Shown: positions 3,207-35,711 of the stretch, one piece after another
How the letters are laid out: each line of letters begins with the position of its first letter
Numbering within the stretch: position 1 is the stretch's first letter
Source of the DNA: Candidatus Hebobacteria bacterium
Lineage (GTDB): Bacteria > Armatimonadota > Hebobacteria > Hebobacterales > Hebobacteraceae
Direction of reading: 5' to 3'
DNA: 41,994 nucleotides
NCBI GenBank assembly: GCA_029821885.1
Contig: JALGXV010000002.1
Coordinates: 1 to 41,994, forward strand
The notes under the pieces: model-generated
Told to the model about the DNA's origin: nothing
Databases searched by the model: none
Seen by the model: the letters and a program-made list of their open reading frames with translations, nothing else
Made by a program: the position numbers and the translations under genes

Positions 3207-3245
3207 CCTCGAATGCACCGGTCCGTGCTCGAGCGGGGAACCGAA

Positions 3246-13000: not shown

Positions 13001-13133
13001 GTTTCTCATGCTGCTGGCGAAGAGCCCGGAGGCCGCCGAGGACCTGCGCAGACACTTGTCCTCGCAAGGCACGGGGCAGCTGTTTCGCTATGACATCGCA
13101 GTTGAGGGCCTCCGCGTATCGACGAACGCGTAG
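10062..13133 (+). CDS. fkp: bifunctional L-fucokinase / L-fucose-1-phosphate guanylyltransferase
   Basis: This 1023-residue protein combines two activities of the fucose salvage pathway, L-fucose + ATP to fucose-1-phosphate and then + GTP to GDP-L-fucose, as in Bacteroides Fkp. The N-terminal pyrophosphorylase (about residues 1-560) has IHSGGDSRRLPQYSLSGK near residue 115-132, the family's nucleotide-binding loop. A left-handed beta-helix-like stretch follows. The C-terminal GHMP kinase (about 660-1023) shows PVRVDFGGGWSDTPPF (motif 1, near 670-685), VPMGSGLGTSSVLGA (motif 2, near 785-800) and LAGAGGGGFLMLL (motif 3, near 973-985). The mutarotase gene immediately upstream would supply the right anomer. 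GDP-fucose could feed the glycosyltransferases at 30855-34677, but no recognisable fucosyltransferase is present. An eight-G run at about 11213-11220 does not break the frame. Confidence 0.92.
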   Translation: MGSTVDLAAIAARARRRYAELLASTSGEIPWWSAVVLTAGSQRQADLYSAEIEHRRERGALPETALVLSVADPDDQRVGSGGATFSALQAMARASLVPDAPESIERWWQSQRVLVIHSGGDSRRLPQYSLSGKLFAALPVETPWGGASTVFDEFMALSTLWVARLASGLVLASGDVVLTFEAGGLCWDRPGVSGVAIRQSAEVGSRHGVYVTDPEGRVYTFLQKPTAAEVRAAGGMLDGEQVAVDTGLLRFDARASASLTQLAGVEAVDGHWSVGEGVLAAAAGARPVIDLYRHVTLALTGQWTPSPDADPHWQRVADALHGLPFHCDIVEGDFTHVGTTALFRSLLTEESALGSLYETQQRLGRVTPPNVRSAGVIVDSILEEGGELGPASVVIECHLDVPVVAARGAILHGLENIPSDVRIPENTVVHQIPVSPPHSRPAVVIRVYGVQDDPKDTLVGGRATWFGRPILEVLDALGLDSDDVWPGVAEEERTLWTALLYPVASVEEAWDCARWMMGTADSFSADRWRRSQRLSLASSASCVDAQQLTAARARRVQANWQLTAIAMAQSGTDVRPLVAQAPGVSALVAVGRALSTRAKEIEERKPTEAASWSYKASRFLSQAGLADEAEAARAASFRSVQRAVEEGVSAAGLLVEEQRWHHDEIEVSAPVRVDFGGGWSDTPPFCIDCGGAVLNAALTLDGEYPIRTLLRRIEEPVIRCVTGEREGDQCEWRNAEAVLAEAKPGSRFAVPAVALQMAGILREGRSLETTLREFGGGLEFTTTVNVPMGSGLGTSSVLGATVLRALAEMLGLALAEAELVDQVSTLEQRMTTGGGWQDQAGGVFPGVKLVTSRPGPRQRLRVAPVRWCGRHQQEFLDRFVLHYTGLVRVAKDLLTQVVGGYLAREVEKVQVLHSIKTLAVEMSHAMSEGDWDALGSLIDRHWEMNKVLDPNTTNAPINACLESVRGYLAGAKLAGAGGGGFLMLLAKSPEAAEDLRRHLSSQGTGQLFRYDIAVEGLRVSTNA

Positions 13134-13728: not shown

Positions 13729-15099
13729 TCAGAAGGCCCTGGGCAGCCGGAGGGCTCGTCTCAGGCGCGCACCCCAGCTGCTGCCTCGCCCAGGCAACGA
13801 GCTCAGGTGGACGACGCGAGACCGGAGGCCGGCGCTCTCCAGAAGCGAGAGAACACGGTAAGGAGTGAGCTTCGGCGAAAAGTAGAACGCCGGCTCCACC
13901 AAGTCAGCACCCGGCGCGACTGCTCCATCGTCGACCGCAGTTTCCGCGAGTTCAGTTCCCGGGTAGACACGCAACCCAAGACTGGACAGAATGCGGTCGC
14001 GCGGCCCCAGAGCCGAGCGCATGAAGCGGATCGTACTGCGCAGAGTCTGCTCGGTCTCGCCCGGGCCGCCGAAGACGAATGACCAGCCGACCCTCAGGTC
14101 GGCCTCTCGCGCCCACCTTGCCGTCTCCGCGATCTGATCCGGAGCGAACCCCTTTCCCATCCGCGCCAGCATCGACTCATCCCCGCTGTCGGCCGCGCAC
14201 ACAACCGACGTGAACCCCGCCCGTTTCATCGCCGCCAGCAGCTCCCTCGACGCAGAGGCCGGGTGAAGGCCGCTGGTGCGAAGATCGGCTTTCACGCGGC
14301 TCTGGATGATCGCCTCGCAGAGAGCCAGCGCGTGATCCGCAGGGTGATTCAGCGTCGCGTCCACGATCTCGAAGCGGCCCACCTTCCACTGCGACTTCGT
14401 CTCCCACATCTCGGCGGCCACTGTGTCGGGGTTGCGTGTGCGATACTCGCTTCCCTCGATCTGGGGATAGGTGCAGTACATGCACTCGAACTGGCAGCCC
14501 CGCTTGCTCTGAACAGGTATCCAGGCGCCGCGGCGCAGGTAGTCATTCACACTCACCCACTCTGCCACGCGGGCGAATGGCATCTCATCCAAGTTCTCGA
14601 CCCTGGTGGGAGAGACGCGGTACTTCGAGTAGGTCTGGCGCGTGCACACGCCGGCCAGCTCAGAAGGCTGGCCACCCGCGTTGAGACAAGAGAGCAGATC
14701 GACCATCGCTTGCTCGCCCTCGCCGACGATGGCGTAGTCCGCCTCCAGCCTCCGAACGAGCTTGTGGGGAGCCACGCTGACCGCCGGGCCGCCCACGACC
14801 AGGGGCACGTCGGTCAGCGAGCGAATCTCCCGGGCAATTGCGCTGGCCTGGGGAAGATGGGGACGGGGCCGCATGGCGTCGCCGTTGTCGAGAGTGGGCA
14901 CAGAAAGCCCGACGGCCACCGGCAGCCAGTCCTCAATCGCCCGAGCCAGCTCGCGGCGGGGGTCCTTGACGAGAGCGAGATCGAGGATGCGAGGTGCGAA
15001 GACGTTCGCCTTGAGGGCGGACGCGATCTGGCAGAGCCCGAGCGGCGGAACAGGGTGACGCACGCGCCCAAGATTGGGCTGAACCAGTAGGACGTTCAT
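13729..15099 (-). CDS. B12-binding-domain radical SAM protein
   Basis: This 456-residue protein has an N-terminal cobalamin-binding Rossmann domain (about residues 1-140: VLLVQPNLGRVRHPVPPLGL, then VPLVVGGPAVSVAP and DYAIVGEGEQAM). A radical SAM domain follows with the cluster motif CQFECMYC at Cys202, Cys206 and Cys209 (CX3CX2C). Other radical SAM landmarks are LRTSGLHPASAS and WSFVFGGPGETEQTL. This layout is typical of class B radical SAM enzymes, which methylate unactivated carbons or rearrange complex substrates such as lipids, hopanoids or peptides. Nothing in the context fixes the substrate. It is transcribed on its own, convergent with the small methyltransferase, 170 bases downstream of the DUF5658-like gene on the same strand. 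Confidence 0.9.
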   Translation of the reverse strand: MNVLLVQPNLGRVRHPVPPLGLCQIASALKANVFAPRILDLALVKDPRRELARAIEDWLPVAVGLSVPTLDNGDAMRPRPHLPQASAIAREIRSLTDVPLVVGGPAVSVAPHKLVRRLEADYAIVGEGEQAMVDLLSCLNAGGQPSELAGVCTRQTYSKYRVSPTRVENLDEMPFARVAEWVSVNDYLRRGAWIPVQSKRGCQFECMYCTYPQIEGSEYRTRNPDTVAAEMWETKSQWKVGRFEIVDATLNHPADHALALCEAIIQSRVKADLRTSGLHPASASRELLAAMKRAGFTSVVCAADSGDESMLARMGKGFAPDQIAETARWAREADLRVGWSFVFGGPGETEQTLRSTIRFMRSALGPRDRILSSLGLRVYPGTELAETAVDDGAVAPGADLVEPAFYFSPKLTPYRVLSLLESAGLRSRVVHLSSLPGRGSSWGARLRRALRLPRAF

Positions 15100-23198: not shown

Positions 23199-23306
23199 GT
23201 CGGCCCGCTCTTCAGCCGTGGCAGGCAGCCGCGACTACTACCAGTGGAAGCCCCGACGAGGAGCCTGCATGCGTGGTCCGCTGCCGCCATGACGGAGGGA
23301 GCCGGC

Positions 23307-24515
23307 ATGGCCGATGCTGGAGGGCAGAGCACCCCGGACCGCTCGCCTGTCATCTGTGTGGTCGCCGGGGAGGCATCCGGCGACTGGGCGGGTGCCCAAC
23401 TGGTCCGAGCGCTGCGCGAGAAGCGCGCCGGCATCGTGGTCCGTGGGATCGGCGGCAAGAGGATGGCCGCCGCGGGTGTCGAGCTGCTGGCCGATAGCAC
23501 CGACTGGGGCGTCATCGGCGTGTTCGACGCTCTCCGGCGCGTGCCGCGCATCTACCTCGCCCTTCGCCGACTGCGAGCGCTGCTGGCGCACAGCCCACCC
23601 ATGGGCGTCGTGCTGATCGACAGCGGCGGAGTGAACATCCCTCTGGCACGCATGATCCGCAAACTCGGCCTCAAGACGCTCTACTACCTGCCTCCCGGCT
23701 CGTGGTCGCGGAGGCCGCGGGGCCGGGCCGTGAGGGATCTCTGCGACGTCATTGCCACGCCGTTCCCTTGGTCCAAGGATCTGCTCGCCGGCGGCCGGGC
23801 ACGAGTTGAGTGGGTCGGTCACCCGGTGCGGGAAGCTGCCAGGCCTGGCATCCCAAAGGAGGCGGCATGGGGCCGGTATGGCCTTGACGCCGGGAGACCC
23901 GTGATGGCTCTGGCGCCCGGCAGCCGCGGGCAGGAGATGCGCTATGTCCTGCCGATAATGGCGGAGGCGGCGTCACTGGTGAGCCAGCGATGGGAGGGAG
24001 TGCAGTTTCTCGCTCCTGTCAGCGATCCGGTATATGAGAAGCCGGTGCGGGATGCCTTCCGGAAAGCAGGAGTCCAAGTGGTGCTGCTGCGAGGGATGGA
24101 GTACGATGCCCTGCAACTGGCAGAGGCGGCCGCCGTCTGCTCTGGAACGGCCACTCTTGAGTTCACGTGCCTGGGTGTGCCGATGGTCGTCGTGTACAAG
24201 GGGAGTCCTGGGATGACTCTCGAGTTCCTGCTTCTGCGAGGTGTTCTGGGCAACCAGTGGCACGCAGGGATGCCCAACATCATCGCCAGCAGGGAGGTCG
24301 TGCCAGAGCTGCTGTGGCGCTATGCCAAGCCGGAGGCGCTGGCGCGCGAGCTGAGCTCACTGCTGGAAGACGAAGAACGCCGGGATCGGATGAAGGCGGA
24401 CCTGGAAGACGTGCTACGGACGCTAGGCGAGCCAGGGGCTTCGGGAAAGACAGCGGAACTGGTCCTTGATATGATAAGCGAGCGAGAGGCGGCGAAACCG
24501 AAGCATGGACATTGA
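23307..24515 (+). CDS. lpxB: lipid-A-disaccharide synthase-like glycosyltransferase (LpxB family, divergent)
   Basis: This 402-residue GT-B protein occupies the lpxB position between lpxA and the lipid A flippase. LpxB features include VAGEASGDWAGAQLVRAL at residues 19-36, VRGIGGKRMAAAGVELLAD, IGVFDALRRVPRIYLALRRL, ALAPGSRGQEMRYVLPIM (LPGSR-like), and CSGTATLEFTCLGVPMVVVY (SGTATLE). Two usually strong motifs differ: IDAPDFN is IDSGGVN, and the YVSPQVWAW loop is YYLPPGSWSRRP. It may therefore use a variant acceptor or lipid but most likely still makes the tetra-acyl disaccharide. The ATG at 23307 is supported by GGAGGGAGCCGGC; earlier in-frame starts (GTG 23244, ATG 23289) lack such a site. 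Confidence 0.85.
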   Translation: MADAGGQSTPDRSPVICVVAGEASGDWAGAQLVRALREKRAGIVVRGIGGKRMAAAGVELLADSTDWGVIGVFDALRRVPRIYLALRRLRALLAHSPPMGVVLIDSGGVNIPLARMIRKLGLKTLYYLPPGSWSRRPRGRAVRDLCDVIATPFPWSKDLLAGGRARVEWVGHPVREAARPGIPKEAAWGRYGLDAGRPVMALAPGSRGQEMRYVLPIMAEAASLVSQRWEGVQFLAPVSDPVYEKPVRDAFRKAGVQVVLLRGMEYDALQLAEAAAVCSGTATLEFTCLGVPMVVVYKGSPGMTLEFLLLRGVLGNQWHAGMPNIIASREVVPELLWRYAKPEALARELSSLLEDEERRDRMKADLEDVLRTLGEPGASGKTAELVLDMISEREAAKPKHGH

Positions 24516-24533
24516 GGAGTGGGAGCACTGAGA

Positions 24534-26417
24534 GTGAACCAGCGCCAAGCTGACGGCAACAGGGCCCGCTCTCCCCAGGCGGTACACGTCTTGCGTCGCC
24601 TGATGGCAGATGCGCGGGGCGGCCTCTGGTCGGCACGAGCAGCGCTGGGCGCCATGATCGGCGAAACGGTGCTCGACACGGCCATCGTCCCCATCCTGGT
24701 GGCATTGATCTTCCTGGCGATTGCCCCGTCCCCCGAGGCCCTTCAAGGGTATGCGCCGAAGGACACGGTGGACTGGATACAGCGACTCGGCTGGGTATCT
24801 GGGGGGGCAAAGTCTGAGCGACTCCGAGGCCTGCTGATCTTCGTCTGTCTCGCGCTGGCGGCCTGGTTCCTCAAGTGCGTATGCGGATTCGGGCGAGCAT
24901 ACTTCTCCCAGCTGTTCGCGCACGGCGTCATGCGCGACTTCCGGCGGCGGCTCTACAGTCATCTCATGCGGCAGTCGCTTGCCTTCCACAACTCCCGCGA
25001 AACCGGCGATCTACTCTCGCGGGTCAGCAATGACGTCATTCTGCTGCAACGGGTGCTGGCGACGGATCTCATCGAGGCAGCGCGCGCACCGGTAGTGTTT
25101 CTCATCGCACTCGGAGTCATGCTGTCGTTCGAGCCGCGCCTGACGCTCCTTGCGCTAGTGTGCATGCCAGGGATCACCCTGATCATCGCCCGCTCCGGAG
25201 ATCGTTTGCGCCGTCTGGCGCGGGAAATGCAGGCTCGGCTGGGGACCCTGAACTCATTCGTACAAGAACGGCTGAACGGTATCCAAACAGTACAGATCTT
25301 CGGCATGGAGAACACGGAGGTCGAGCGTTTCGGGGAGATCAACGAAAGCAACTTCAGAGCGAACATGCGAGTTGCCAAGGTGATGTCCGTGCTCAGTCCA
25401 TCGGTGGAATTCATCAGCGCCGTCGGATTGCTTGTGCTGATCTACGTGGCCGGCTATCTGACGATCAATGGTTTCCTGAGCGTCGGCACCCTGATTGCCT
25501 TTGGGATGGTGAGCCAGCGGCTGGGAAGCCGACTCGGGCTGCTGGGCAAGATTTGGCTCTCCGGGCAGCAGGCGGCAGCAGCAGGTGACCGCGTGTTCGA
25601 GATACTCGACCAAAGCGAAGAAGTGCCGGAGGCGCCCGATGCGAGCGACCTGCAGCGCGTGCGCGGCAGGATCTCCTTCCGCCACGTCCAGTTCCGGTAT
25701 GCAGACGGGGAGACGGTGCTCCAGGACATTGAGGTAGACATCAGTCCCGGGAGCGTCGTGGCACTCGTGGGGACGAGTGGAGCTGGCAAGACGAGTATGG
25801 CGAACCTGATCCCGCGCTTCTACGACCCGACGGGCGGCCACATCGAGATCGACGGGGCGAACATCGCCGCCGTGACCGTGGCCTCTCTGCGTTCCCAGAT
25901 CGGAATTGTGCCCCAGGAGCCGATTCTTTTCAGCGGGTCGATACAGGACAACATCGCGTACGCTCGGCCGGACGCCACTGGGGAGGAGATCGAGGCCGCC
26001 GCGCGTGCTGCCAACGCAGATGACTTCATCAGGGAGCTGCCGAAGGGCTATGACACCTCCGTTGGGGAGCGGGCAACGAAGCTGTCCGGGGGACAACGGC
26101 AACGCATAGCGATTGCCAGAGCACTGCTTCGTGACCCGCGAGTCCTGATCTTGGACGAGGCAACCAGCGCCTTGGACGCGGAATCGGAGGCGCTGGTTCA
26201 GGACGCTCTGGAGCACCTCATGCAAGGGCGCACCACTCTGATCATCGCACACCGCCTCTCCACGATCCAGCGCGCCGACCGCATTCTCGTCCTCGCCGAC
26301 GGCCGGATTGCCGAGGACGGCACGCACGAAGAGCTATACCGACACGCGGGCACCTACCGGCGGCTCTACGAAGCACAGCTCCAGCCCTTCGGGGAGGAGG
26401 CCGCCGCTCGGCCATGA
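24534..26417 (+). CDS. msbA: lipid A export ABC transporter, MsbA-like (permease-ATPase fusion)
   Basis: This 627-residue half-transporter has six membrane helices (first about residue 38-60) followed by an ATPase domain. The nucleotide-binding domain shows Walker A GTSGAGKTS (near residue 420), Q-loop IVPQEPILFSGSI, signature LSGGQRQRIAIARALL, Walker B VLILDEATSALD and the H-loop IAHRLSTI. MsbA-type proteins flip lipid A-core across the inner membrane. The family includes drug exporters, but the position between lpxB and waaA makes lipid A the likely cargo. Start: GTG at 24534 has GGGAG 8 bases upstream; a GTG at 24519 is nearer the lpxB stop but is too close to its GGAG. waaA overlaps the 3' end by ATGA. 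The periplasmic loop near residues 60-110 is longer than usual. Confidence 0.9.
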   Translation: MNQRQADGNRARSPQAVHVLRRLMADARGGLWSARAALGAMIGETVLDTAIVPILVALIFLAIAPSPEALQGYAPKDTVDWIQRLGWVSGGAKSERLRGLLIFVCLALAAWFLKCVCGFGRAYFSQLFAHGVMRDFRRRLYSHLMRQSLAFHNSRETGDLLSRVSNDVILLQRVLATDLIEAARAPVVFLIALGVMLSFEPRLTLLALVCMPGITLIIARSGDRLRRLAREMQARLGTLNSFVQERLNGIQTVQIFGMENTEVERFGEINESNFRANMRVAKVMSVLSPSVEFISAVGLLVLIYVAGYLTINGFLSVGTLIAFGMVSQRLGSRLGLLGKIWLSGQQAAAAGDRVFEILDQSEEVPEAPDASDLQRVRGRISFRHVQFRYADGETVLQDIEVDISPGSVVALVGTSGAGKTSMANLIPRFYDPTGGHIEIDGANIAAVTVASLRSQIGIVPQEPILFSGSIQDNIAYARPDATGEEIEAAARAANADDFIRELPKGYDTSVGERATKLSGGQRQRIAIARALLRDPRVLILDEATSALDAESEALVQDALEHLMQGRTTLIIAHRLSTIQRADRILVLADGRIAEDGTHEELYRHAGTYRRLYEAQLQPFGEEAAARP

Positions 26418-27739
26418 AGCCCAGTCTCCTGTCCACGCTTTCGCTGGCGGCCCAGCTGCTGGTGTACGACCTCGTTCTCTTGGCGCTCGTCCCGCTCGCC
26501 GTGCTCTGGCTCGGGTGGCGCGGAGCCGTCAAACGCAAGCCGGTTGGCAATATCCTCGAACGCCTCGGCCTGGTGCCGCGCCTGCCCGCGGGCAGGTGTC
26601 CGCGCATCTGGATTCACGCCGTATCAGCGGGAGAAATGGCCGCTGCTCGCCCCGTCATCGCCGAACTGCGGCGGCGCTTCCCAGGCGCCGGCATAGCCGT
26701 CTCCACACATACGGACACCGGTATGGCGCTCGCCCGGAACATCTGTGACGAGGTCGACGTCTTATTCTACTTGCCCTTCGATTGGCCTGACACCATGGTG
26801 CTGGCTCTGTGGCGACTTCGTCCCCAGCTCATCCTCGTCGTGGAGAAGGAGCTCTGGCCGAACATGCTCGCGCTTGGGAGGCTGTTCGGGGCGCGGGTGC
26901 TTGCAGTGAACGGCCGAGTGTCGGACCGCATGATGAGCCGGGCGCGCTGGCTGCCGGGCTTCGTCCGATGGCTCTACCGTTTGACGGACCGACTCTGCGT
27001 CCAATCGGCGACCGATGCGGAGAGGCTGCGGCGGATCGCTCCCGGCAGTCGCGTGCGGGTGGTGGTCGCGGGGAACACGAAGGCCGATACGCTGGCCGCG
27101 CGCGACCGACGGGCGGAGGAGCGCGTGGCGCAGGACATCGGGGCGCTGGACTCCCACCTTTGGCTGGTGGCCGGCAGCACACATCCGGGAGAGGAAGAGC
27201 AGATCGTCGACGCGTTCGTCAAGATCAGAGAGAAGGAACCGCGGGCGCGCCTGCTGTTGGCCCCGCGCCACGTCGACCGCGTGGCCCAGGTATCGGCCAT
27301 GCTGGCCCAGCGCGGTCTGCACGTTGTGCGCCGCAGTGAGGGTCGGGAGGACCACGCCGAAGCGGTCGTCATCCTCGATACCATGGGGGAGCTGCGGGCG
27401 GCCTATGCGCTTGGCGCCGCCGGGTTTGTCGGCGGGACCCTGGTCGCTGTGGGAGGCCACAACCTGCTCGAACCCACGGCCGTGGGTGTCGCCTCTCTCT
27501 TCGGCCCGCACACGGAGAACTGCTCGGACACGGCCGATCTGCTCTCAGCAGAGGGGGTCGGCTTCGCCGTCGGGGGTCCCGAGGAGCTCGCCCGGGAATT
27601 CCTCCGCCTCGCCGGAGATGATGCGCGTCGACGAGAGATCGCGCGCCGCGCAGGTGGACTGATAGCGCGCCAGCGAGGCGCATCCTTCCGCTGCGCCGAG
27701 GTGGCTGCGGAACTGCTGGAGGCGGAGAGCAGCAAGTGA
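26414..27739 (+). CDS. waaA: 3-deoxy-D-manno-octulosonic acid (Kdo) transferase
   Basis: This 441-residue membrane-anchored GT-B enzyme transfers Kdo from CMP-Kdo to lipid IVA. The N-terminal membrane helix (about residues 13-36) is followed by the conserved GNILERLGL with the expected catalytic glutamate. The family core comes next: RIWIHAVSAGEMAAARPVI, then STHTDTGMALA and FYLPFDWPDTMV. VVEKELWPNMLALG, VNGRVSDRM and the C-terminal GGTLVAVGGHNLLEP are all diagnostic. Whether it adds one or several Kdo units cannot be told. No Kdo or CMP-Kdo synthesis genes (kdsA, kdsB) are in the window. It overlaps the transporter by ATGA and lpxK by GTGA. Confidence 0.95.
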   Translation: MKPSLLSTLSLAAQLLVYDLVLLALVPLAVLWLGWRGAVKRKPVGNILERLGLVPRLPAGRCPRIWIHAVSAGEMAAARPVIAELRRRFPGAGIAVSTHTDTGMALARNICDEVDVLFYLPFDWPDTMVLALWRLRPQLILVVEKELWPNMLALGRLFGARVLAVNGRVSDRMMSRARWLPGFVRWLYRLTDRLCVQSATDAERLRRIAPGSRVRVVVAGNTKADTLAARDRRAEERVAQDIGALDSHLWLVAGSTHPGEEEQIVDAFVKIREKEPRARLLLAPRHVDRVAQVSAMLAQRGLHVVRRSEGREDHAEAVVILDTMGELRAAYALGAAGFVGGTLVAVGGHNLLEPTAVGVASLFGPHTENCSDTADLLSAEGVGFAVGGPEELAREFLRLAGDDARRREIARRAGGLIARQRGASFRCAEVAAELLEAESSK

Positions 27740-28857
27740 CCGGCCGCCGGGGAACGAGGTGGGAGCGTCTCGCACGCGGCAACGGCGATCGGCCGACCGA
27801 CCGTATTGCTGCGGCCGGGCTGTGGGCGCTGTCCCTCCTGTATGGCGCCGCCCTCGGGCTCCACCACGCAGGATATCGGCTGGGCCTGGCGCGCAGAACA
27901 CGATTGGCCGCTCACGTCGTGAGCATTGGCAATCTGACCGTTGGCGGGACGGGCAAGACGACTGCGGCGATGGCGGTCGCCAAGTGGGTGGCGCAGCAGG
28001 GAAAGCGCGTGGCCATCCTCAGCAGGGGCTACCGTGGCGCGGGCGAGTCGAAGTCGGTGCTGGTTTCAGAGGGAGCCGGGCCCCTCGTGGATCCTGAGCA
28101 GGCGGGCGACGAAGCGTACCTGATGGCAGAGTCGTTGAGAGGTGTGGGCGTTCTCGTGGGCAAGGATCGGCGGCGAACCGGACGGCTTGCCGTCGAGCAG
28201 CTGGGGGCCGAAGTGCTCGTGCTCGACGATGGGTTCCAATACCAGCGCCTGGAGAAGGACCTGGAGATCGTTCTGGTGGACGCGCTGGCCCCGTTCGGGT
28301 ATGATTTCCTGGTGCCGCGAGGGATGCTGAGGGAGCCGCCGACGCATCTGGCGCGGGCGGATTCGGTCTGGCTGACACATTCGGATCTGCTCCGCGCAGC
28401 CGACCTGGCGGCGATCAGGGCGCGGATCGAGGAACTCGCGCCCGACGCGCGGATCTGGGAGGCGAGACATGCCCCCACGCGCCTTCGGCCTCTCGGAGGC
28501 AAAGCGGAGGAGCAATGCCCCGAGGCGCTTCGCGGGAGGACCGTCGTGGCGGTGTCGAGCATCGGGAATCCGACGGCCTTCGAGCGCACCCTGGAGCAAG
28601 CCGGAGCCGTGGTTCTGGGAAGAGCCAGGTTCCCGGACCATCACCGGTACCGCGCGGAGGACCTGCGTGGCGTCGCCTTCGGTGAAGCCGCCTCGGCCGA
28701 ATGGATTGTGACGACGCCGAAGGATGCCGTCCGGCTGCCGGGGGAGTGCTTCGACCGGCCTGCTTGGGTGCTGGAGGTCGATCTCGCACCGCGGGCAGGG
28801 CGCCGGTCGCTGGCGGAGGAGTTGGAGTGGCTACTGCGAGCCAGAGTCGAGGTATGA
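27736..28857 (+). CDS. lpxK: tetraacyldisaccharide 4'-kinase
   Basis: LpxK phosphorylates the 4' position of the lipid A disaccharide at the inner membrane. The 373-residue product has an N-terminal amphipathic/membrane segment (about residues 25-48), the family P-loop SIGNLTVGGTGKTTAAMA (residues 63-80), AILSRGYRG, VLVGKDRR, and the DDGFQYQRL motif characteristic of LpxK. The final domain includes FPDHHRYRAEDL and TTPKDAVRLP. The start is GTG at 27736, overlapping the waaA stop as GTGA; the stop overlaps lpxL by ATGA. Length is slightly above the usual 320-350 because of extra N-terminal residues. Confidence 0.94.
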   Translation: MTGRRGTRWERLARGNGDRPTDRIAAAGLWALSLLYGAALGLHHAGYRLGLARRTRLAAHVVSIGNLTVGGTGKTTAAMAVAKWVAQQGKRVAILSRGYRGAGESKSVLVSEGAGPLVDPEQAGDEAYLMAESLRGVGVLVGKDRRRTGRLAVEQLGAEVLVLDDGFQYQRLEKDLEIVLVDALAPFGYDFLVPRGMLREPPTHLARADSVWLTHSDLLRAADLAAIRARIEELAPDARIWEARHAPTRLRPLGGKAEEQCPEALRGRTVVAVSSIGNPTAFERTLEQAGAVVLGRARFPDHHRYRAEDLRGVAFGEAASAEWIVTTPKDAVRLPGECFDRPAWVLEVDLAPRAGRRSLAEELEWLLRARVEV

Positions 28858-29813
28858 GGGGGATCTACGGAACGGAGAGCCGGTCCGCGCTCTACCAGTG
28901 GCAGCGGCGTCTCCAGACGCGCCTGGGGAACGCCTTGGTACTGTGGATGGCGCGACGCTGGCAGCGTCTTCCCTCCGGGCTCGCCGAACGACTTGGTGTC
29001 GGCATCGGGATGCTCATGCGAGCCGCCTCCCCCCGACATGCCCGCATCGTGATGACGAACCTGCGTCTGGCCTTTGGCCGCGAGAAGGGAGAAGCAGAGC
29101 TGGCCGCGATCGCCAAGGCATGCTACCGGCATCTCGGCCTCTGCCTCACCGAACTCATCCGTCTCCCGGCGATGAGCCAATATGACATCCGGCAAACGGT
29201 GGAACTTCGGGGAAAGGAGCACATAGACGCGGCGCTGGCGGCCGGGCATGGTGTCATCCTGTTGACCGGACACCTGGGAAACTGGGAGCTGTATGGTTCT
29301 CGCCTCGCGGCAGAGGGATATCCTCTCAATGTGATCGCGAGAGCGCAGCGAGACGATCAGATCACTAACTACATCCGGCGCACGAGAGAAGGCACGGGTA
29401 TGAAGGTATTGCACCGCGGGGTGGCGGTGCGAAACTCTCTGCGAGCGCTGAAGAACAACGAGCTTCTGGCGATCCTGCTCGACCAGAATGCAGGCGACGA
29501 TGGTGTCTTCGTGGATTTCTTCGGCCACCTCGCGTCCACGGCTCCGGGAGCCGCAGCCTTCGCCCTGAAGACCGGGGCGGCAGTCATTCCCGGGTTCGGC
29601 TGGCGGAATCCCGACAACACGCATGTTGCGGTGGCCAGCCCCCCAGTGCCGCTCGTGGCGAGCGGTGACAGGGACCGCGACGTCCTCGTTAACACAGCAC
29701 GCTACACCAAGGCGATTGAGGAGCACATCCGGGCCCACCCGGCGCAGTGGTTCTGGCTTCACAAGCGATGGAAGGCGCGTCCGCCCGAGGAACGGGCGCA
29801 AGAGGCGCCATGA
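28854..29813 (+). CDS. lpxL: lipid A secondary acyltransferase (LpxL/HtrB family)
   Basis: This 319-residue acyltransferase adds a secondary acyl chain to Kdo-lipid A. It has the HX4E catalytic motif in TGHLGNWELYGSRLA (His140 and Glu145), the preceding VELRGKEHIDAALAAGHGVI, and LLDQNAGDDGVFVDFFG, which carries the conserved D-x-G-x-F-V-x-F-F-G. The C-terminal RAHPAQWFWLHKRWK is the family hallmark. It is probably membrane-associated through an N-terminal helix. The ATG at 28854 overlaps the lpxK stop, fixing the start. Only one such gene is in the operon, so it may act as LpxL or LpxM; chain specificity is not visible. Confidence 0.92.
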   Translation: MRGIYGTESRSALYQWQRRLQTRLGNALVLWMARRWQRLPSGLAERLGVGIGMLMRAASPRHARIVMTNLRLAFGREKGEAELAAIAKACYRHLGLCLTELIRLPAMSQYDIRQTVELRGKEHIDAALAAGHGVILLTGHLGNWELYGSRLAAEGYPLNVIARAQRDDQITNYIRRTREGTGMKVLHRGVAVRNSLRALKNNELLAILLDQNAGDDGVFVDFFGHLASTAPGAAAFALKTGAAVIPGFGWRNPDNTHVAVASPPVPLVASGDRDRDVLVNTARYTKAIEEHIRAHPAQWFWLHKRWKARPPEERAQEAP

Positions 29814-30853
29814 CTGACCAAGCACAGAGCATCCTGGTGGTGAAGCTCAGCTCCATCGGAGATGTCGTGCAGGCGCTGCCTGTGGCGCGAGCGCTGCGTC
29901 GCAGGTTCCCCGACGCTCACATCGGGTGGGCCGTGGGCCCGGCCGCCGCCGACGTCGTCACGGGCAATCCCCAGCTCGACGAGGTGCTTGTTGTCGGCGG
30001 CACCAAGAACGGCGGGGCGAAGGTCCGAATGCTCCCACCGCTCGGAGCACCTCTTCGTCTCAAGAGGGCGCTGCGTCTCAAGAGCTACGACGTGGCACTG
30101 GACCTCCAGGGACTGCTCAAGAGCGCTGCCATCGCCTACTTGAGTGGCGCAAAGCAGAGAATCGGCTATCGGACTCTGCGCGAGGGCGTATGCCTCTTCT
30201 ACAACCGGCGCATCGTCCCGGAGCGAAGAGATGTGCATGCCGTTGACTCCTACCTGGACTTCGCAGAAGCGCTCGGAGCTGAGCGTGAGCCAGTCGGATT
30301 CGATATCGCCATCTCGCAGGACGATCGGCGGGTCGTAGAGGAGCTGCTGGAGGGAGGAGACAGCCTTGCCGCGCTGATTCCAGGGGCCCGCTGGGAGTCG
30401 AAGCTCTGGCCCGGCGAGCGCTTCGCGGCCGTGGCCGACGCGCTGGCAGATGAGTTCGGCCTGACGGCTGTCGTGCTTGGGACGGAGAACGATAGGAAGC
30501 TGGCCACCACCATAGCCCAGACGGCGCGGACTCGCGTCATCGATCTGACCGGCAAGACAACGCTGAAGCAGGCGGCGGAGGCCCTGCGCCGATGCAGAGT
30601 CACCGTGGGGAACGACACCGGGCCTCTCTACGTGTCGGCCGCCGTGGGCACGCCGACGGTCGGAATCTTCGGGCCCAGTGATGCGCGACGCCTCGGCCCC
30701 TATGGGGCGGGGCATGCGAAGGTTGTTACCGACGCCGAATGCGCACCGTGTCGGAACCGCAGGTGTCATCCCCGCACCTGCATGGAGGCCATCGAGGCTG
30801 ACCAAGTGGCAGGGGCAGTGCGCGCCCTTCTCACGCGCTCGGGAGAGGGCTGA
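29810..30853 (+). CDS. GT9 family glycosyltransferase, probable heptosyltransferase
   Basis: This 347-residue GT-B enzyme is of the ADP-heptose:LPS heptosyltransferase family. It starts with ILVVKLSSIGDVVQALPVAR, which is WaaC/WaaF-like, and has VALDLQGLLKSAAIAYLSGA. The donor-binding motif is NDTGPLYVSAAVGTPTVGIF, then GPSDARRLGPYG. A C-terminal cysteine cluster (CAPCRNRRCHPRTC) is found in many non-enterobacterial members. The opening resembles heptosyltransferase I slightly more than II. It probably adds heptose to Kdo-lipid A at the cytoplasmic face. The ATG overlaps the lpxL stop by ATGA. The heptose adenylyltransferase at the end of the operon supplies part of the donor route. Confidence 0.9.
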   Translation: MTDQAQSILVVKLSSIGDVVQALPVARALRRRFPDAHIGWAVGPAAADVVTGNPQLDEVLVVGGTKNGGAKVRMLPPLGAPLRLKRALRLKSYDVALDLQGLLKSAAIAYLSGAKQRIGYRTLREGVCLFYNRRIVPERRDVHAVDSYLDFAEALGAEREPVGFDIAISQDDRRVVEELLEGGDSLAALIPGARWESKLWPGERFAAVADALADEFGLTAVVLGTENDRKLATTIAQTARTRVIDLTGKTTLKQAAEALRRCRVTVGNDTGPLYVSAAVGTPTVGIFGPSDARRLGPYGAGHAKVVTDAECAPCRNRRCHPRTCMEAIEADQVAGAVRALLTRSGEG

Positions 30854-30854
30854 G

Positions 30855-33038
30855 TTGGCTGGAAGCCTGCGCAACTCGCGACTGACCATACTGCAGGTGC
30901 TCTCGTGGCTCAACTACGGGGGAGTCGAGACCTATACCATCCGACTCGCCCGCGGGCTGAAGGCGAAGGGGCACCGCGTACTCGTTGCGTCACATGGAGG
31001 CCAGCTGGTGCCCGAGTTGGAGGCCTCCGGGATCGAGCACTTCCATGTCAACTTCGCCGGGGGGAGAATGGCCCCAGGCGTGCTGGCAATCAGGCGTCTC
31101 CTCGAGCGCGAGCACGTCGACATAGTGAACGCACACAACTGGCGCTCGGGCGTCGTGTCGTACCTCGCCTGCAAGCGCGCCGGCGTCCCCTACGTCCTGA
31201 CGATCCACGGCACTCGAAGCCCTGTGAACCGCTACACAGTCTTCTACTGGAGTCGCCGCGTGGCCGTGGTGAGCGACGCAAGCTGCCGCAACCTCGTAGA
31301 CGGCTTCGGGCTGCCTCCGGAGAGGGTCGTGAAGACCATCATCGGAGTGGACACGAACCGCTTCCGGCCTTCGGACCCGGACCCGGAGCTGGAACGGGAG
31401 GTCGGCCTGCAGCCCGGCGCGCCGCGGGTCGTGCATGTAAGCCGGTTCAGCCACAGCAAGGCGCCGGTGGCGCAGGCCGCTATCCAGGCGATTGAGGAGC
31501 TGGAGAAGGCCGTGGCCAATGTCGAGCTCGTGCTCGTGGGCCAGGGACCCGAGGAACAGGCCGTGGCGCGGGCCGCTGACAAGATGAACCAGCGCCTAGG
31601 GCGGAAGGCCGTCTTCGCGCTCGGAGGGCGCAGCGACATTCCTCGCATCTTGTCGCTCGGCTCCGTTGCCATCGGGACGGCATCGGTCACCTTGGAGGCG
31701 ATGGCCTGCGGGCTCCCCGTGGTCGCTGCCGGCAAGGGCGGATACTTCGGCATCGTGCATCCCGAGAACTTGGCCAGCGCCGAAGCATCTTGCTTCGCCG
31801 ACCACGAGACCGTCGGCCGGGTGGATCCCCAACGACTCAAGGAAGACATGGAAGCGCTTCTCACCGATCGGCGCGAGGCCGAGCGGCTGGGTGAGTTCGG
31901 GAGGGCGACGGCGGCGTCGAGATACGGAGTGTCGAGAGTGACGAGGGAGGTCGAGGCCCTCTACCGCGAGGAGCTGTGCGACTGCGCGAGCGTCAAACGG
32001 GTCCTCGTATTCCACCTGAATCAGATCGGCGATCTGATGTTCACGCTGCCGGCCCTCAAGGCGCTCCGGGAGGCCTATCCTGAGGCCCACATAACGAGCG
32101 TGCTCAGGCCGTACTTGGCCGGCCTGCTGGCCGAGAGCGGCTTCGTGGATGAGATCCTGCACCGGCCGTCGCCCGTCCTGCAGGCTGCAGTGGGCCTCGG
32201 TCTGAAGCTCCGGGAGGGCAGGCCGGACATGGCGGTGGCCTTCTCACAGTCGGCGACCATGGCCCTCTGCGCGCGGCTATCCGGAGCGCGTCATCGCGTG
32301 GGCTACGTCGACTCGGATCTCGCGGGGTTCCTCACGCACCGGATCCAGGTCCGCGGGATCCCCTGCCCGGAGAAGGTGATGCGGCTCCTCCGCGGCCTTG
32401 GCATAGAGCCCGCCAAGACGGACTACGTTGGTCTGGCGAGGCTGTCGCAGGAGGACTGGGAGTACGGAGGCAGACTACTGGCCGAATGCGAGATGCAGGG
32501 AGACGGACCGCTTATCGCACTTGCGCCGGGCGAGTCGAGCAACAAGCCGTACAAGTCGTGGACCGCTGAGGGCTTCATGGCGGTGGCCGTACGGCTTGCC
32601 CACGACGACGGCGCTCGACTGGTGGTCGTTGGGGCTGAGGCCGATCGGGAGCTTGGATACGAGATCATCGGGCCAATCGGTCCGCGCCAATCGTGCAACC
32701 TCGCCGGGCGAACCACGCCTGGCCAGCTCGCAGCAGTCCTGGCACGCTGCGACCTGCTCATCGGCATCGACTCCGGGCCAATGCACGTGGCGGCCGCCAT
32801 GGCGAGGCCTGTGGTGGCGCTCTTCGGTCCCACGGACCCCCGGCGGACGGGCCCGCAGGGAGAGGGTCACGAGGTGATCTTTCATGAGCAGCCGTGCTGG
32901 GGGCCCTGTGTTCATCCAGTGACACCCAACTGCGGCCACAGGAGCTGCATGATGTCGATCACACCTCATGAGGTGTTGGCAGCGGCGCTTCGGATCTTGT
33001 CGCGCGAGGGGCGACTCGAGGCGCAGGCGGCGGAGTGA
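30855..33038 (+). CDS. fused GT4-GT9 glycosyltransferase (two domains)
   Basis: This 727-residue protein joins two glycosyltransferases. Residues about 10-375 are a GT4 enzyme: LQVLSWLNYGGVETYTIRLA, DIVNAHNWRSGVVSYLACK, VVHVSRFSHSKAP and VTLEAMACGLPVVAAGKGGY. The first glutamate of the usual E-x7-E motif seems absent. Residues about 380-727 are a GT9 heptosyltransferase-like enzyme: VLVFHLNQIGDLMFTLPALK, LAPGESSNKPYKSW, GIDSGPMHVAAAMARPVVAL, then FGPTDPRRTGPQG and a cysteine-rich tail. The frame is continuous across the junction. The likely start is TTG at 30855, one base after the previous stop, with GGAGAGG 9 bases upstream; no ATG or GTG is suitably placed near the domain start. It probably adds two successive core sugars. 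Confidence 0.85.
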   Translation: MAGSLRNSRLTILQVLSWLNYGGVETYTIRLARGLKAKGHRVLVASHGGQLVPELEASGIEHFHVNFAGGRMAPGVLAIRRLLEREHVDIVNAHNWRSGVVSYLACKRAGVPYVLTIHGTRSPVNRYTVFYWSRRVAVVSDASCRNLVDGFGLPPERVVKTIIGVDTNRFRPSDPDPELEREVGLQPGAPRVVHVSRFSHSKAPVAQAAIQAIEELEKAVANVELVLVGQGPEEQAVARAADKMNQRLGRKAVFALGGRSDIPRILSLGSVAIGTASVTLEAMACGLPVVAAGKGGYFGIVHPENLASAEASCFADHETVGRVDPQRLKEDMEALLTDRREAERLGEFGRATAASRYGVSRVTREVEALYREELCDCASVKRVLVFHLNQIGDLMFTLPALKALREAYPEAHITSVLRPYLAGLLAESGFVDEILHRPSPVLQAAVGLGLKLREGRPDMAVAFSQSATMALCARLSGARHRVGYVDSDLAGFLTHRIQVRGIPCPEKVMRLLRGLGIEPAKTDYVGLARLSQEDWEYGGRLLAECEMQGDGPLIALAPGESSNKPYKSWTAEGFMAVAVRLAHDDGARLVVVGAEADRELGYEIIGPIGPRQSCNLAGRTTPGQLAAVLARCDLLIGIDSGPMHVAAAMARPVVALFGPTDPRRTGPQGEGHEVIFHEQPCWGPCVHPVTPNCGHRSCMMSITPHEVLAAALRILSREGRLEAQAAE

Positions 33039-33057
33039 GGCGGAGCGGGCGAGCCCG

Positions 33058-34677
33058 ATGACCGACGTGAGCATCTGTATCCCCATCTACAACAGCGCTT
33101 CTGTGGTCGCGAACTGCCTGTGCGCGCTGCCAGAGGCGTGCGGGGGGTTGAGGTGGGAGGCGATTCTGGTGGACAATGCCTCGACGGATGGGGGCGGGAG
33201 GCTCGTGGCGGCGGAGTTCCCCCAGGTAAGGCTGATCGTCAACGACGAGAACAAAGGATTCGCGGCGGCGAGCAACCAGGCTGCGGCGGCCGGACACGGT
33301 CGGTACCTGCTCCTGCTCAATGCTGACACGGTGCCAGCACCGGGATCGCTGGCGCGGCTCGCCGAGTTCCTGGAGAAGAACCCGCGGGCGGCGGCGGTGG
33401 GGCCGCGGCTGCGCCGCCCCGATGGGCGAACGCAGACGTCGATCCACCCGATCCCGACGCTTCGTAATCAGCTTCTGCGCCTGGCCGGCCTCAATACGAC
33501 GAGCCTCGCGCGACTGCGGATGCGAGGGCATACGCCCCGGCCGGTGGCAGCGCTGCTGGGCGCGTGTATGATGATTCCGCGCGAGGCGTGGGAGGAGATC
33601 GGTCCGCTGGACGAGAGGTTCTTCTTCTACCTGGAGGACACGGACTGGTGTCTGCGGGCGCGGAAGCGCGGCCGGCAAGTGTACTATTGGCCGCAGCCGG
33701 AGGTGGTGCACGTGGGGGGCGCTTCGGCGCTCGGCCTGGGGGCTGAGCGAAAGGCGCTGTATTACGAGAGCCTGGTGACGTTCTTCGAGGTGCACTATGG
33801 AGAGCGCGCCGCCGGGCGACTGAGGGCGGCGCTACGGGTGCGGGGGTATCGTCCTCCAACGACATCCGAGGGAGTGGTGAGCAGAGCGGAAGAGTCGGAT
33901 TGTGGCTCGGGCGCGGCTGTCTCGGCGGTGGTGTTGGCGCGGGACGAGGAGGAGGACCTGCCCGAGTGTCTGGAGAGCCTGGGGTGGGCGCACGAGATCG
34001 TGGTGGTGGTGTCGGCAGAGAGCGTGGATAAGAGCGCGGAGGTGGCAAGGCGGTACACAGAGCGGGTGCTGGTGCGGCCGTGGGAGGGGTTCGCGCGGGT
34101 GCGGAACTGGGCCATCGAGCAGGCCGCAGGGCCGTGGGTGCTCATGGTCGACGCGGACGAGCGGGTGACGCCGAGACTGATGGATGAGATTCGGGAGGCG
34201 GTGGCAGGGCCGGGGCCGGCGGCTTATGGGATCCCCCGGGCGTTCTTCTTCTGCGGACACCAGCTGCGACATGGAGGGTGCTGGCCGGATGAGGTGCTGC
34301 GGCTCTTTCGGCGGGACGCGGGGCGGTACGGAGAGCGGCACGTACACGAGCGGTTCCACGCGACCGGGCGGGTGGGGAGATTGAGGGAGCCGCTGTTGCA
34401 CTACGCGTACCGGGATATGGAGGAGTATTTCGAGAAGTTCTCTCGCTATGCAGAGTTGGCGGCCCAGGACCTGTGGGAGAGGGGCCGGCGGGCGCGGCTG
34501 CGGGAATGGGTGTCGCCGGGGTTCACGTTCTTCAACCGGTATGTGCTCAAGGGCGGCTTTCTGGACGGCGCGCCGGGGCTGGTATACAGTGCGCTGGGAG
34601 CGGCGTTTGTGCTGGCGCGGACGGCGCGGCTGTGGGAGATGGAAGGGGGACGGCCCGAACAAGGGAGGCACGAATGA
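33058..34677 (+). CDS. fused GT2-GT2 glycosyltransferase (rhamnosyltransferase-like + WaaE-like)
   Basis: This 539-residue protein carries two GT-A domains. Residues about 4-275 are a GT2 of the rhamnosyltransferase/WbbL type: VSICIPIYNSASVVANCL, ILVDNASTDGG, NENKGFAAASNQ-like NDENKGFAAASNQA, DxD-like LLNADTVPAPGS (Asp90), and FFFYLEDTDWCLRARKRG. Residues about 286-539 resemble WaaE/KdtX core beta-glucosyltransferases: VSAVVLARDEEEDLPECLES, EIVVVVSAESVDKSAEVARR, WVLMVDADERVTPRLMDEI and a C-terminal region with FSRYAELAAQDLW and GFTFFNRYVLKGGFLDG. The coding strand is markedly G-rich, with GTG, CGG and GGG codons favoured over the GTC, CGC and GGC of neighbours. The ATG at 33058 is reasonable though its ribosome binding site is weak. 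The adenylyltransferase overlaps by ATGA. Confidence 0.88.
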   Translation: MTDVSICIPIYNSASVVANCLCALPEACGGLRWEAILVDNASTDGGGRLVAAEFPQVRLIVNDENKGFAAASNQAAAAGHGRYLLLLNADTVPAPGSLARLAEFLEKNPRAAAVGPRLRRPDGRTQTSIHPIPTLRNQLLRLAGLNTTSLARLRMRGHTPRPVAALLGACMMIPREAWEEIGPLDERFFFYLEDTDWCLRARKRGRQVYYWPQPEVVHVGGASALGLGAERKALYYESLVTFFEVHYGERAAGRLRAALRVRGYRPPTTSEGVVSRAEESDCGSGAAVSAVVLARDEEEDLPECLESLGWAHEIVVVVSAESVDKSAEVARRYTERVLVRPWEGFARVRNWAIEQAAGPWVLMVDADERVTPRLMDEIREAVAGPGPAAYGIPRAFFFCGHQLRHGGCWPDEVLRLFRRDAGRYGERHVHERFHATGRVGRLREPLLHYAYRDMEEYFEKFSRYAELAAQDLWERGRRARLREWVSPGFTFFNRYVLKGGFLDGAPGLVYSALGAAFVLARTARLWEMEGGRPEQGRHE

Positions 34678-35189
34678 GCGGCGCGTCGGGACCGAGGAAG
34701 GCGGGTGAGAAGATCGTATCGCGAGAAGAGGCGAAGCCACGAGTTGAGAGGTGGCGCCAAGAGGGCAAGCGCGTCGCCTACGCCAACGGGTGCTTCGATC
34801 TCCTTCACATCGGCCACGTGCGGACGCTGGAGGCCGCGCGCCAACATGGAGACGTTCTCGTTGTCGGGCTGAACTCAGACGCATCGGCGCGACGGCTCAA
34901 GGGGGAAGGGCGACCGCTCTATAGCGAACGCGAGAGGGCCGAGATGATTGCGGCTCTGGCCTGCGTCGATCTGGTGGTGATCTTCCCAGAGGTCAGCTCG
35001 CTCCCCCTCATAATGGCCCTGAAGCCAGACGTGTGGGTGAAGGGCGGGGACTATGTACTCGAGACCGTGAACCAGGAGGAGCGCGCCTTCGTGGAGAGCT
35101 ACGGGGGGCAGGTGGCTCTGGCGGAGCACGTCGAGGGGGTGTCCGCGAGCGACTTGATCGCGCGCGTGAAGTCCCTCCCCGAGAGCTGA
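34674..35189 (+). CDS. rfaE2: D-glycero-beta-D-manno-heptose 1-phosphate adenylyltransferase
   Basis: This 171-residue nucleotidyltransferase is equivalent to the C-terminal domain of E. coli HldE (also called HldC or RfaE2). It makes ADP-heptose from heptose-1-phosphate. The cytidylyltransferase-like motif NGCFDLLHIGHVRTL has HIGH at residues 45-48. VVGLNSDASARRLKG, then GRPLYSERERAEMIAAL, and KPDVWVKGGDY are diagnostic; EHVEGVSASDLI closes the domain. The sugar kinase half of HldE is not fused and not in the window. The ATG overlaps the preceding stop (ATGA). It is the last gene of the operon. Its presence supports heptose as a core sugar and the GT9 enzymes as heptosyltransferases. Confidence 0.93.
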   Translation: MSGASGPRKAGEKIVSREEAKPRVERWRQEGKRVAYANGCFDLLHIGHVRTLEAARQHGDVLVVGLNSDASARRLKGEGRPLYSERERAEMIAALACVDLVVIFPEVSSLPLIMALKPDVWVKGGDYVLETVNQEERAFVESYGGQVALAEHVEGVSASDLIARVKSLPES

Positions 35190-35206
35190 CCGCGCCGGGG
35201 CGCCAC

Positions 35207-35229
35207 AGCCGCCGGCCGCGCGCGCGGCT
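35207..35229. terminator. weak hairpin at the end of the envelope operon
   Basis: AGCCGC (35207-35212) pairs with GCGGCT (35224-35229) around a GC-rich loop that can pair internally in several ways. It sits in the 39-base gap between convergent rfaE2 and cvpA. No T-run follows. Confidence 0.3.
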
Positions 35230-35711
35230 CACCAATTGCCCAAGTTCTGGAGCGCCTGGACGACTCGGTGGTAGCTGCGGAACTGGACAATCTCATGGCC
35301 CATGAAGCTGTTGAGCACCGTGGCGGCGAAGGCCGTGTCCGCGTAGGCCGTCAGCATCACCCGGAAGAAGAAGTGGGCCGCGATTATCCCCGACGCGACC
35401 CCGAGGATACCTCCCACAACGGGATCGAGCACATCTAGGGACATCAGAGTCGTCTCATAGATCAACTTCGTCGCGATGACGATGAGCACGACGAGGACGA
35501 CGAAGATCATCGTCATCCAGAAGGCCTCGGCGCTCGCTTCGGACGACATGAGTGGCGCCGTCTGCGCGAGCCATCCGGAGGCGACAATGGAGATCTTGAG
35601 GGCAATGATGCCGCCAACGAAGTCGAATATCGCTCGGCCAAATCCGCGCAGGCTTTCCAGCCAGGCAATAGCAACGATCAGCAGGATAGCGACGACATCG
35701 AACCAGGTCAT
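35229..35711 (-). CDS. CvpA family membrane protein
   Basis: This 160-residue protein has four hydrophobic helices (about residues 5-20, 30-50, 67-90 and 100-122). The CvpA pattern is visible: FDVVAILLIVAIAWLESLRG, then GFGRAIFDFVGGIIAL and LDPVVGGILGVASGIIAAHF. CvpA-like proteins are inner-membrane proteins linked to colicin V export and envelope integrity; their mechanism is unknown. The start overlaps the stop of the upstream amrB gene by four bases on the minus strand, so the two are co-translated. The gene converges with the lipid A/core operon. Confidence 0.87.
   Translation of the reverse strand: MTWFDVVAILLIVAIAWLESLRGFGRAIFDFVGGIIALKISIVASGWLAQTAPLMSSEASAEAFWMTMIFVVLVVLIVIATKLIYETTLMSLDVLDPVVGGILGVASGIIAAHFFFRVMLTAYADTAFAATVLNSFMGHEIVQFRSYHRVVQALQNLGNW

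Follow-up and report, generated by a model that had tools for sequence, protein, structure and literature searches.

A conserved GT4-GT9 fusion gene among lipid A and Kdo genes of Candidatus Hebobacteria, with a putative role in lipopolysaccharide inner-core assembly

The locus described here raises the question of whether two complete glycosyltransferases, one of GT4 type and one resembling GT9 heptosyltransferases, are genuinely encoded as one polypeptide in a Candidatus Hebobacteria bacterium, and what such a protein would do. The gene occupies positions 30855–33038 on the forward strand of the window, by which we mean the whole 41,994-nucleotide stretch analysed. The ORF list and its translation gave a single open frame of 727 codons plus stop, beginning with TTG and ending with TGA, which reproduced the coordinates, length and start codon of the continuous frame reported in a preliminary description. 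Its identity as a GT4-GT9 fusion was established from the ORF, Pfam searches, an alignment of relatives and a structure model; the last three place the GT4-type half, with its GT-B fold, at 30882–31976 (approximately residues 10–374) and the GT9 heptosyltransferase-like half at 31992–33014 (approximately residues 380–720). The TTG at 30855 is located one base past the stop of the upstream GT9 gene, and the end of that gene contains GGGAGAGGG (30841–30849, forward strand), a purine-rich, ribosome-binding-like stretch read from the sequence and separated from the TTG by 5 bases. The longest mechanical ORF (786 amino acids) starts from a GTG at 30678, which falls within the upstream GT9 gene. A GTG stands at the position equivalent to TTG 30855 in the fusion gene of G001, and the likeliest starts of five fused genes are TTG in the window, GTG in G001 and G005, and ATG in G003 and G012. 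Because the start codon differs across the fused relatives, sequence comparison gives no support to the earlier suggestion that the TTG tunes expression.

Pfam identified Glyco_transf_4 (PF13439) at residues 21–169 (87.5 bits against a cut-off of 28.5), Glycos_transf_1 (PF00534) at residues 179–350 (57.9 against 26.4) and Glyco_transf_9 (PF01075) at residues 449–681 (103.7 against 22). A structure model of the full-length fusion (mean pLDDT 91.6, pTM 0.81) predicted two complete GT-B folds; it was built on 51 aligned sequences and replaced a four-row model with a pLDDT of 62.4. The GT4 half superposed on BshA 6n1x over residues 6–376 (Z 35.3, rmsd 2.6, 340 aligned) and, with a lower score, on WaaG 2iv7 over residues 11–375 (Z 26.8, rmsd 3.5, 323 aligned). 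The GT9 half superposed on the Veillonella parvula GT9 3tov over residues 373–718 (Z 37.4, rmsd 2.2, 334 aligned) and on Escherichia coli WaaF 1psw over residues 381–720 (Z 35.5, rmsd 2.5, 318 aligned). From these superpositions both enzymes are therefore complete, and only a few residues join them: the last helix of the GT4 half reaches residue 374, and the GT9 half opens with a strand at 382. The earlier proposal of two complete enzymes in one gene is thus borne out by domains above their cut-offs and by the predicted folds, and the sequence at the joint, where it had called for a check by reads, contains no stop at or near 31990.

Four fused proteins of the same class (window, G001, G005 and G012) share invariant residues in both halves, namely G22-G23, H118, R197, K202 and E281 in the GT4 half and D393, K567 and D639 in the GT9 half. 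The latter three align with 1psw residues and correspond to residues of catalytic type in WaaC/WaaF enzymes (the Asp of an N-terminal xGD, a Lys, and the Asp of D-S/T-G). Statements on motifs are based on separate alignments and pattern scans; the 51-row model alignment samples the motif loop thinly, with a letter at E281 in 5 of 51 rows and at G22 in 16 of 51. Among NCBIfam profiles, the GT9 half scores highest with TIGR02195 (lipopolysaccharide heptosyltransferase II), at 122.3 bits and under the cut-off of 134.6. By sequence, this half is WaaF-like and is not classed as WaaF; it shares the fold, the best profile and the D/K/D residues with the E. coli enzyme but differs from it in scoring below the family cut-off and in not standing alone. 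The N-terminal half shares the GT-B fold, the second Glu and the R/K pair with WaaG-like and BshA-like GT4 enzymes (2iv7/8b5s, 6n1x), but unlike BshA it lacks the first Glu of the E-x7-E motif and has six residues fewer in that loop. Since the first Glu is absent, it is named GT4-type, an assignment by profile and fold.

An intact joined frame was found in 4 of 14 Ca. Hebobacteria genomes: that of the window (G000), G001 as the genome nearest to it (91% identity; the 91%-identical match lies in Ca. Hebobacterum abditum JALGXW010000003.1), G005 (62%) and G012 (44%), and these align across the junction without a gap. Between the window and G001, dN/dS by NG86 was 0.062/0.680 = 0.091 for the GT4 half and 0.038/0.482 = 0.080 for the GT9 half, and the YN00 values were below these (0.035 and 0.057, respectively); by this sequence measure, both halves alike are under purifying selection. 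In the other genomes, the fusion is interrupted by two contig ends in G003 and represented by its C-terminal part only, at a contig start, in G006; G008 has the second GT9 gene (GT9b) unfused and adjoining the first (GT9a); G009 and G011 carry a related stand-alone GT4 (42% and 40%) together with a divergent GT4-GT9 frame elsewhere; and G013 gave a partial match (residues 312–715, 30% identity). The kdtA contigs of G004 and G007 end short of the fusion site, and the fusion was seen nowhere else in these two genomes. G002, a close relative from family f1 whose genome is a single contig with 81% completeness, had neither a fusion nor a KdtA match, and may have lost LPS or be incomplete.

The neighbours of the fusion gene are lipid A, Kdo and heptose genes, as expected of an LPS inner-core enzyme, and it belongs to a same-strand run of the order lpxC-fabZ-lpxA-lpxB-msbA-kdtA-lpxK-lpxL-GT9a-[GT4-GT9]-GT2GT2-hldE-C. 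The first three were named from reading translations, and those from lpxB to hldE-C from Pfam/NCBIfam profiles. From the ORFs and profiles, all on the forward strand, these are lpxB (23244–24515), an msbA-like ABC transporter gene (24519–26417), kdtA for the Kdo transferase (26414–27739), lpxK (27736–28857), an lpxL-like acyltransferase gene (28701–29813) and the WaaC/WaaF-like heptosyltransferase gene GT9a (29747–30853 as listed, the true start being perhaps further in). Downstream of the fusion are a GT2-GT2 fusion (33058–34677, 539 amino acids from this ATG; ORF and Pfam) and an ORF resembling the C-terminal, heptose-1-phosphate adenylyltransferase part of hldE (34473–35189), which as listed overlaps the end of the preceding gene. 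The genes are tightly spaced, with neighbours a few bases apart or overlapping by as little. A search of 29600–35300 gave zero terminator-like sites, whereas shuffled sequences gave a mean of 1.5 (sd 1.3). The position after kdtA-lpxK-lpxL-GT9a is held in G001 and G012. The hldE-C-like gene is also downstream of the fusion in G001, with two other genes between. In that genome, of the same genus, a separate GT4 (L051:10604–11713) and a separate GT2 (L051:11689–12507) replace the GT2-GT2 gene of the window; the operon part downstream of the fusion thus varies even within the genus. In family f4, kdtA and lpxK form single frames, in G012 at L054:3772–6495 (908 codons) and in G010 at L059:5027–7540 (838 codons), and Pfam detected both domains in each.

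We consider it probable that the fusion is a cytoplasmic, bifunctional glycosyltransferase that helps to assemble the LPS inner core, and infer its two activities as follows. KdtA would add Kdo; the upstream WaaC-like GT9a would act on Kdo and add the first heptose-type sugar; the C-terminal GT9 half would add the next heptose-type sugar in a WaaF-like role; and the N-terminal GT4 half would add a further neighbouring sugar, probably a hexose, to the same growing core in a WaaG-like role. In the E. coli core pathway WaaC, WaaF and WaaG act in this order of roles. Joining would keep the two enzymes in a 1:1 ratio on one acceptor. A fusion also points to which two transferases act together. By NCBIfam, GT9a scores highest as heptosyltransferase I, under the cut-off (174.5 versus 185.3 bits), and also exceeds the heptosyltransferase II cut-off (140.9 versus 134.6 bits). 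The hldE-C-like gene scored 177.9 bits against a cut-off of 181.5, and the best scores in the window genome were 98.5 for gmhA (cut-off 209.45), 195.3 for rfaE domain I (345) and 117 for hldD (274.6). None of the 14 class genomes passed the cut-off of the gmhA, rfaE domain I or hldD profile, and 2 of 14 control genomes did so in each search. With the ADP-heptose pathway visible only in part, it is uncertain which donor the GT9 half uses. We counted this against the bifunctional reading, along with the GT9 score under the WaaF cut-off, the missing first Glu, and the relatives without the joint (GT9b alone in G008; most of the GT4 half lost in G010).

A reading in which both enzymes are active and their fusion is a neutral operon accident, with no coupling, appears doubtful, even if several observations lean towards it. 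The close packing of the operon is one of these, the other fusions in such operons (kdtA-lpxK in G010 and G012, GT2-GT2 in the window) are another, and related clades have the genes separate. Among the matches listed from 291 Armatimonadota genomes, at least four were near-full-span and free of stops (G000, G001, G005 and G012), a lower bound since three candidates were scored for most genomes. The match in G233 spans both halves but runs through a TGA; here one frame contains a GT4 of a different lineage (24%) and a GT9, separated by no more than one TGA and two codons, which again fits an accidental joining. Elsewhere in the phylum GT9a is followed by an unfused GT9b gene (for instance in L080, L081 and L089), and other orders include GT9a-GT9b-GT4 (L011) and GT9a followed by a GT4 of the same subfamily (L105, 33%). 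In the GT9 tree, the GT9 half of the fusion is placed together with stand-alone GT9b proteins in a clade of 27 rows (SH-aLRT 100). A single fusion origin for families f1 and f4 was not rejected by an AU test made on GT9 (p-AU 0.41, 29 rows). The gapless shared junction favours such a single origin, but it is not recovered in the unconstrained trees, where the GT9 halves of f4 cluster with unfused GT9b rows (SH-aLRT 82) and G012, for its GT4 half, joins the unfused GT4 proteins of G009 and G011 (81/83). What speaks against mere accident is that the same pairing and order apparently arose at least twice and was kept in many genomes of one group.

This recurrence came to light when the same domain order was sought in other phyla, as the preliminary description had advised, and a separate GT4-GT9 fusion family was found. 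Among a sample of 397 relatives reaching beyond Armatimonadota (two candidates scored for each genome listed, E no higher than 1e-80), the one full-span fusion outside the phylum was that of G377, whose phylum has the fusion in 5 of 44 genomes; a TGA flagged in G409 is, by coordinates, the gene's own stop. A sample of 384 relatives of G377 added G463 and G616, neither of which is among those 44 genomes. A profile of the seven outside fusions (G377, G397, G408, G409, G410, G463 and G616) had matches with an E of 1e-90 or less in 353 of 384 G616 relatives, which is a number of profile matches and not of fusions, the span having been checked for the listed rows only; among the matches listed, every row spans at least 686 of the 694 profile positions. 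The outside fusions are of about 700 amino acids and share order and size with the window protein, but they belong to other GT4 and GT9 lineages and have a canonical E-x7-E, with PEAFGR, PEGFGR or PESFGR ahead of the second Glu in all seven; the strict pattern was matched in 9 of 12 loci (relatives of G616, G616 included).

The outside fusion directly follows lpxL in 7 of 11 loci read (G408, G409, G616, G672, G674, G688 and G892), and that lpxL is preceded by kdtA and lpxK in G408 and G616 and by lpxK in G409. In G377 the gene ahead of the fusion encodes a WaaC-like GT9 with an ELM1 domain attached, and in G397 it is a comparable 743-codon frame, scanned over its first half. A GT9 gene and an ELM1-like gene precede the fusion in G463, and in G410 no matched gene lies ahead of it on the contig. 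The ELM1-like domain (PF06258, Mito_fiss_Elm1) occurs in three arrangements, fused to the WaaC-like GT9 in G377 (L107:6545–8740), fused to LpxL in G408 (L118:9935–11872) and as a stand-alone gene in G463 (L117:521–1507).

The seven outside fusions are monophyletic in both halves (SH-aLRT 98 for GT9; 100/100 for GT4). Holding them together with the Hebobacteria fusions was rejected for GT9 (p-AU 0.0007; five of the seven, quick tree) and for GT4 (p-AU under 1e-40; five, then seven). The trees therefore make a strong case for two independent origins of the fusion; it falls short of final because long branches and uneven composition were flagged in them. Because an unrelated GT4-GT9 fusion recurs next to lipid A/Kdo genes elsewhere, the coupled addition of two sugars is favoured and appears plausible. 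In a collection of plasmids, 154 records had a match and three covered at least 80% of the query, two of them from Proteus (one opened) and one from Arthrobacter, in two pieces (unopened). A Proteus mirabilis match over 91% of the query was rejected as a fusion: it consists of two ORFs of 377 and 333 amino acids, tblastn having crossed a stop.

Somewhat less probable again is that catalysis falls to the GT9 half, the GT4 half being mainly a module for acceptor binding or docking, or one that is losing activity. This reading draws on the motif loop. The earlier remark that the first Glu of E-x7-E is missing proved correct: the second Glu is E281, Ile273 stands eight positions before it, and in four alignments to GlgM and BshA chains six template residues are unpaired at the first-Glu site, so that part of the loop is missing as well. 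However, the same short loop is present in all fused Hebobacteria proteins covering it (window, G001, G003, G005 and G012) and in unfused GT4 relatives (G009, G011, G014, G028 and G041); the G032 GT4 and the divergent G009 and G011 frames gave no row in the pattern scan and are uncounted. Being common to fused and unfused relatives, the short loop is a stable trait of the subfamily that is independent of the fusion, and we rejected the idea that the loss of the Glu resulted from it. The other GT4 residues named above are invariant, and the dN/dS of this half is close to the low value of the GT9 half. The GT4 rhamnosyltransferase WsaF is described as active with Pro325 at the place of the first Glu (PMC3898925), so the absence of this residue does not imply inactivity. 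Like the window GT4, WsaF has only the second Glu; unlike it, WsaF is stand-alone, has a Pro-rich motif instead of a shortened loop and acts on an S-layer glycan. For the Hebobacteria half, the missing Glu may instead reflect another donor.

A second point for a docking role comes from G010, in which a 520-codon frame (L059:9436–10995) has lost approximately residues 124–358 in frame. The loss of about 235 residues removes nearly the whole donor-binding domain of GT4, and the GT9 half is kept, being 63% identical to that of G012 and its sister in the GT9 tree. The first 115 or so residues and the last helix remain of the GT4 half, and its glycine-rich loop also looks degraded. The deletion is known from one assembly; because GT4 was lost and GT9 kept, it suggests that the sugar added by GT4 is more dispensable than that added by GT9. 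A broader proposal can be made, which we hold tentatively and regard as possible at most: GT4-GT9 fusion would be a convergent way to build the lipid A-proximal core, having arisen at least twice by lipid A/Kdo genes because of acceptor hand-over between the two sites, and the GT4 site of the Hebobacteria, lacking the first Glu, would point to an unusual donor or sugar.

That an assembly error or frameshift fused two genes can be dismissed: the source assembly is fragmented (444 contigs), but the frameshift that would have separated the halves is excluded by the intact, stop-free frames of G001, G005 and G012, and because of this conservation the joint is genuine.

The window fusion is thus real and conserved, and multi-module LPS glycosyltransferases as such are already known. 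The Klebsiella WbbB-type O-antigen enzymes are described as likewise carrying several glycosyltransferase modules per polypeptide in LPS assembly (PMC11231755), but serve O-antigen polymerisation and termination and belong to other GT families. The open-licence literature, judged by titles and abstract openings, yielded no report of a GT4-GT9 fusion, and neither a core structure nor an assignment of core genes for Armatimonadota LPS turned up in the literature searched. The paper describing the class lists KdsABCD, KdtA and LpxABDL among the LPS genes of its MAGs, and the words 'glycosyltransferase' and 'heptose' are absent from its main text (PMC10290634). Beyond the earlier observations, the present analysis adds two things, the natural deletion of GT4 and a second, independent fusion family close to lipid A/Kdo genes. 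Recurrence near the same genes in unrelated lineages leads to a testable prediction, that the heptose-type sugar and the GT4-added sugar are adjacent in the core, and G010 together with the unfused G008 offers a ready comparison for the role of the joint.

The divergent GT4-GT9 frames of family f3 are located in G009 at L097:8042–10114 (691 codons), on a different contig from kdtA, and in G011 at L041:1015–2760, cut by a contig end. The G009 frame matches positions 147–707 of the window fusion. We rejected it as the same fusion, its GT9 half grouping with G013 outside the GT9b clade. It has no N-terminal GT4 domain by Pfam, its motifs are eroded and, by eye, the Asp of the GT9 xGD motif seems lost; the sequences of G009 and G011 possibly represent a third, degenerate fusion that is no longer catalytic. 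Elsewhere on the contig of the window, upstream of the operon, are genes for a pyruvate formate lyase-like glycyl radical enzyme (3213–6454; Pfam) followed by an apparent activase (by eye), a 1023-residue Fkp-like protein with fucose pyrophosphorylase and GHMP kinase domains (10062–13133), and, on the reverse strand, a B12-binding radical SAM protein (13729–15099; Pfam).
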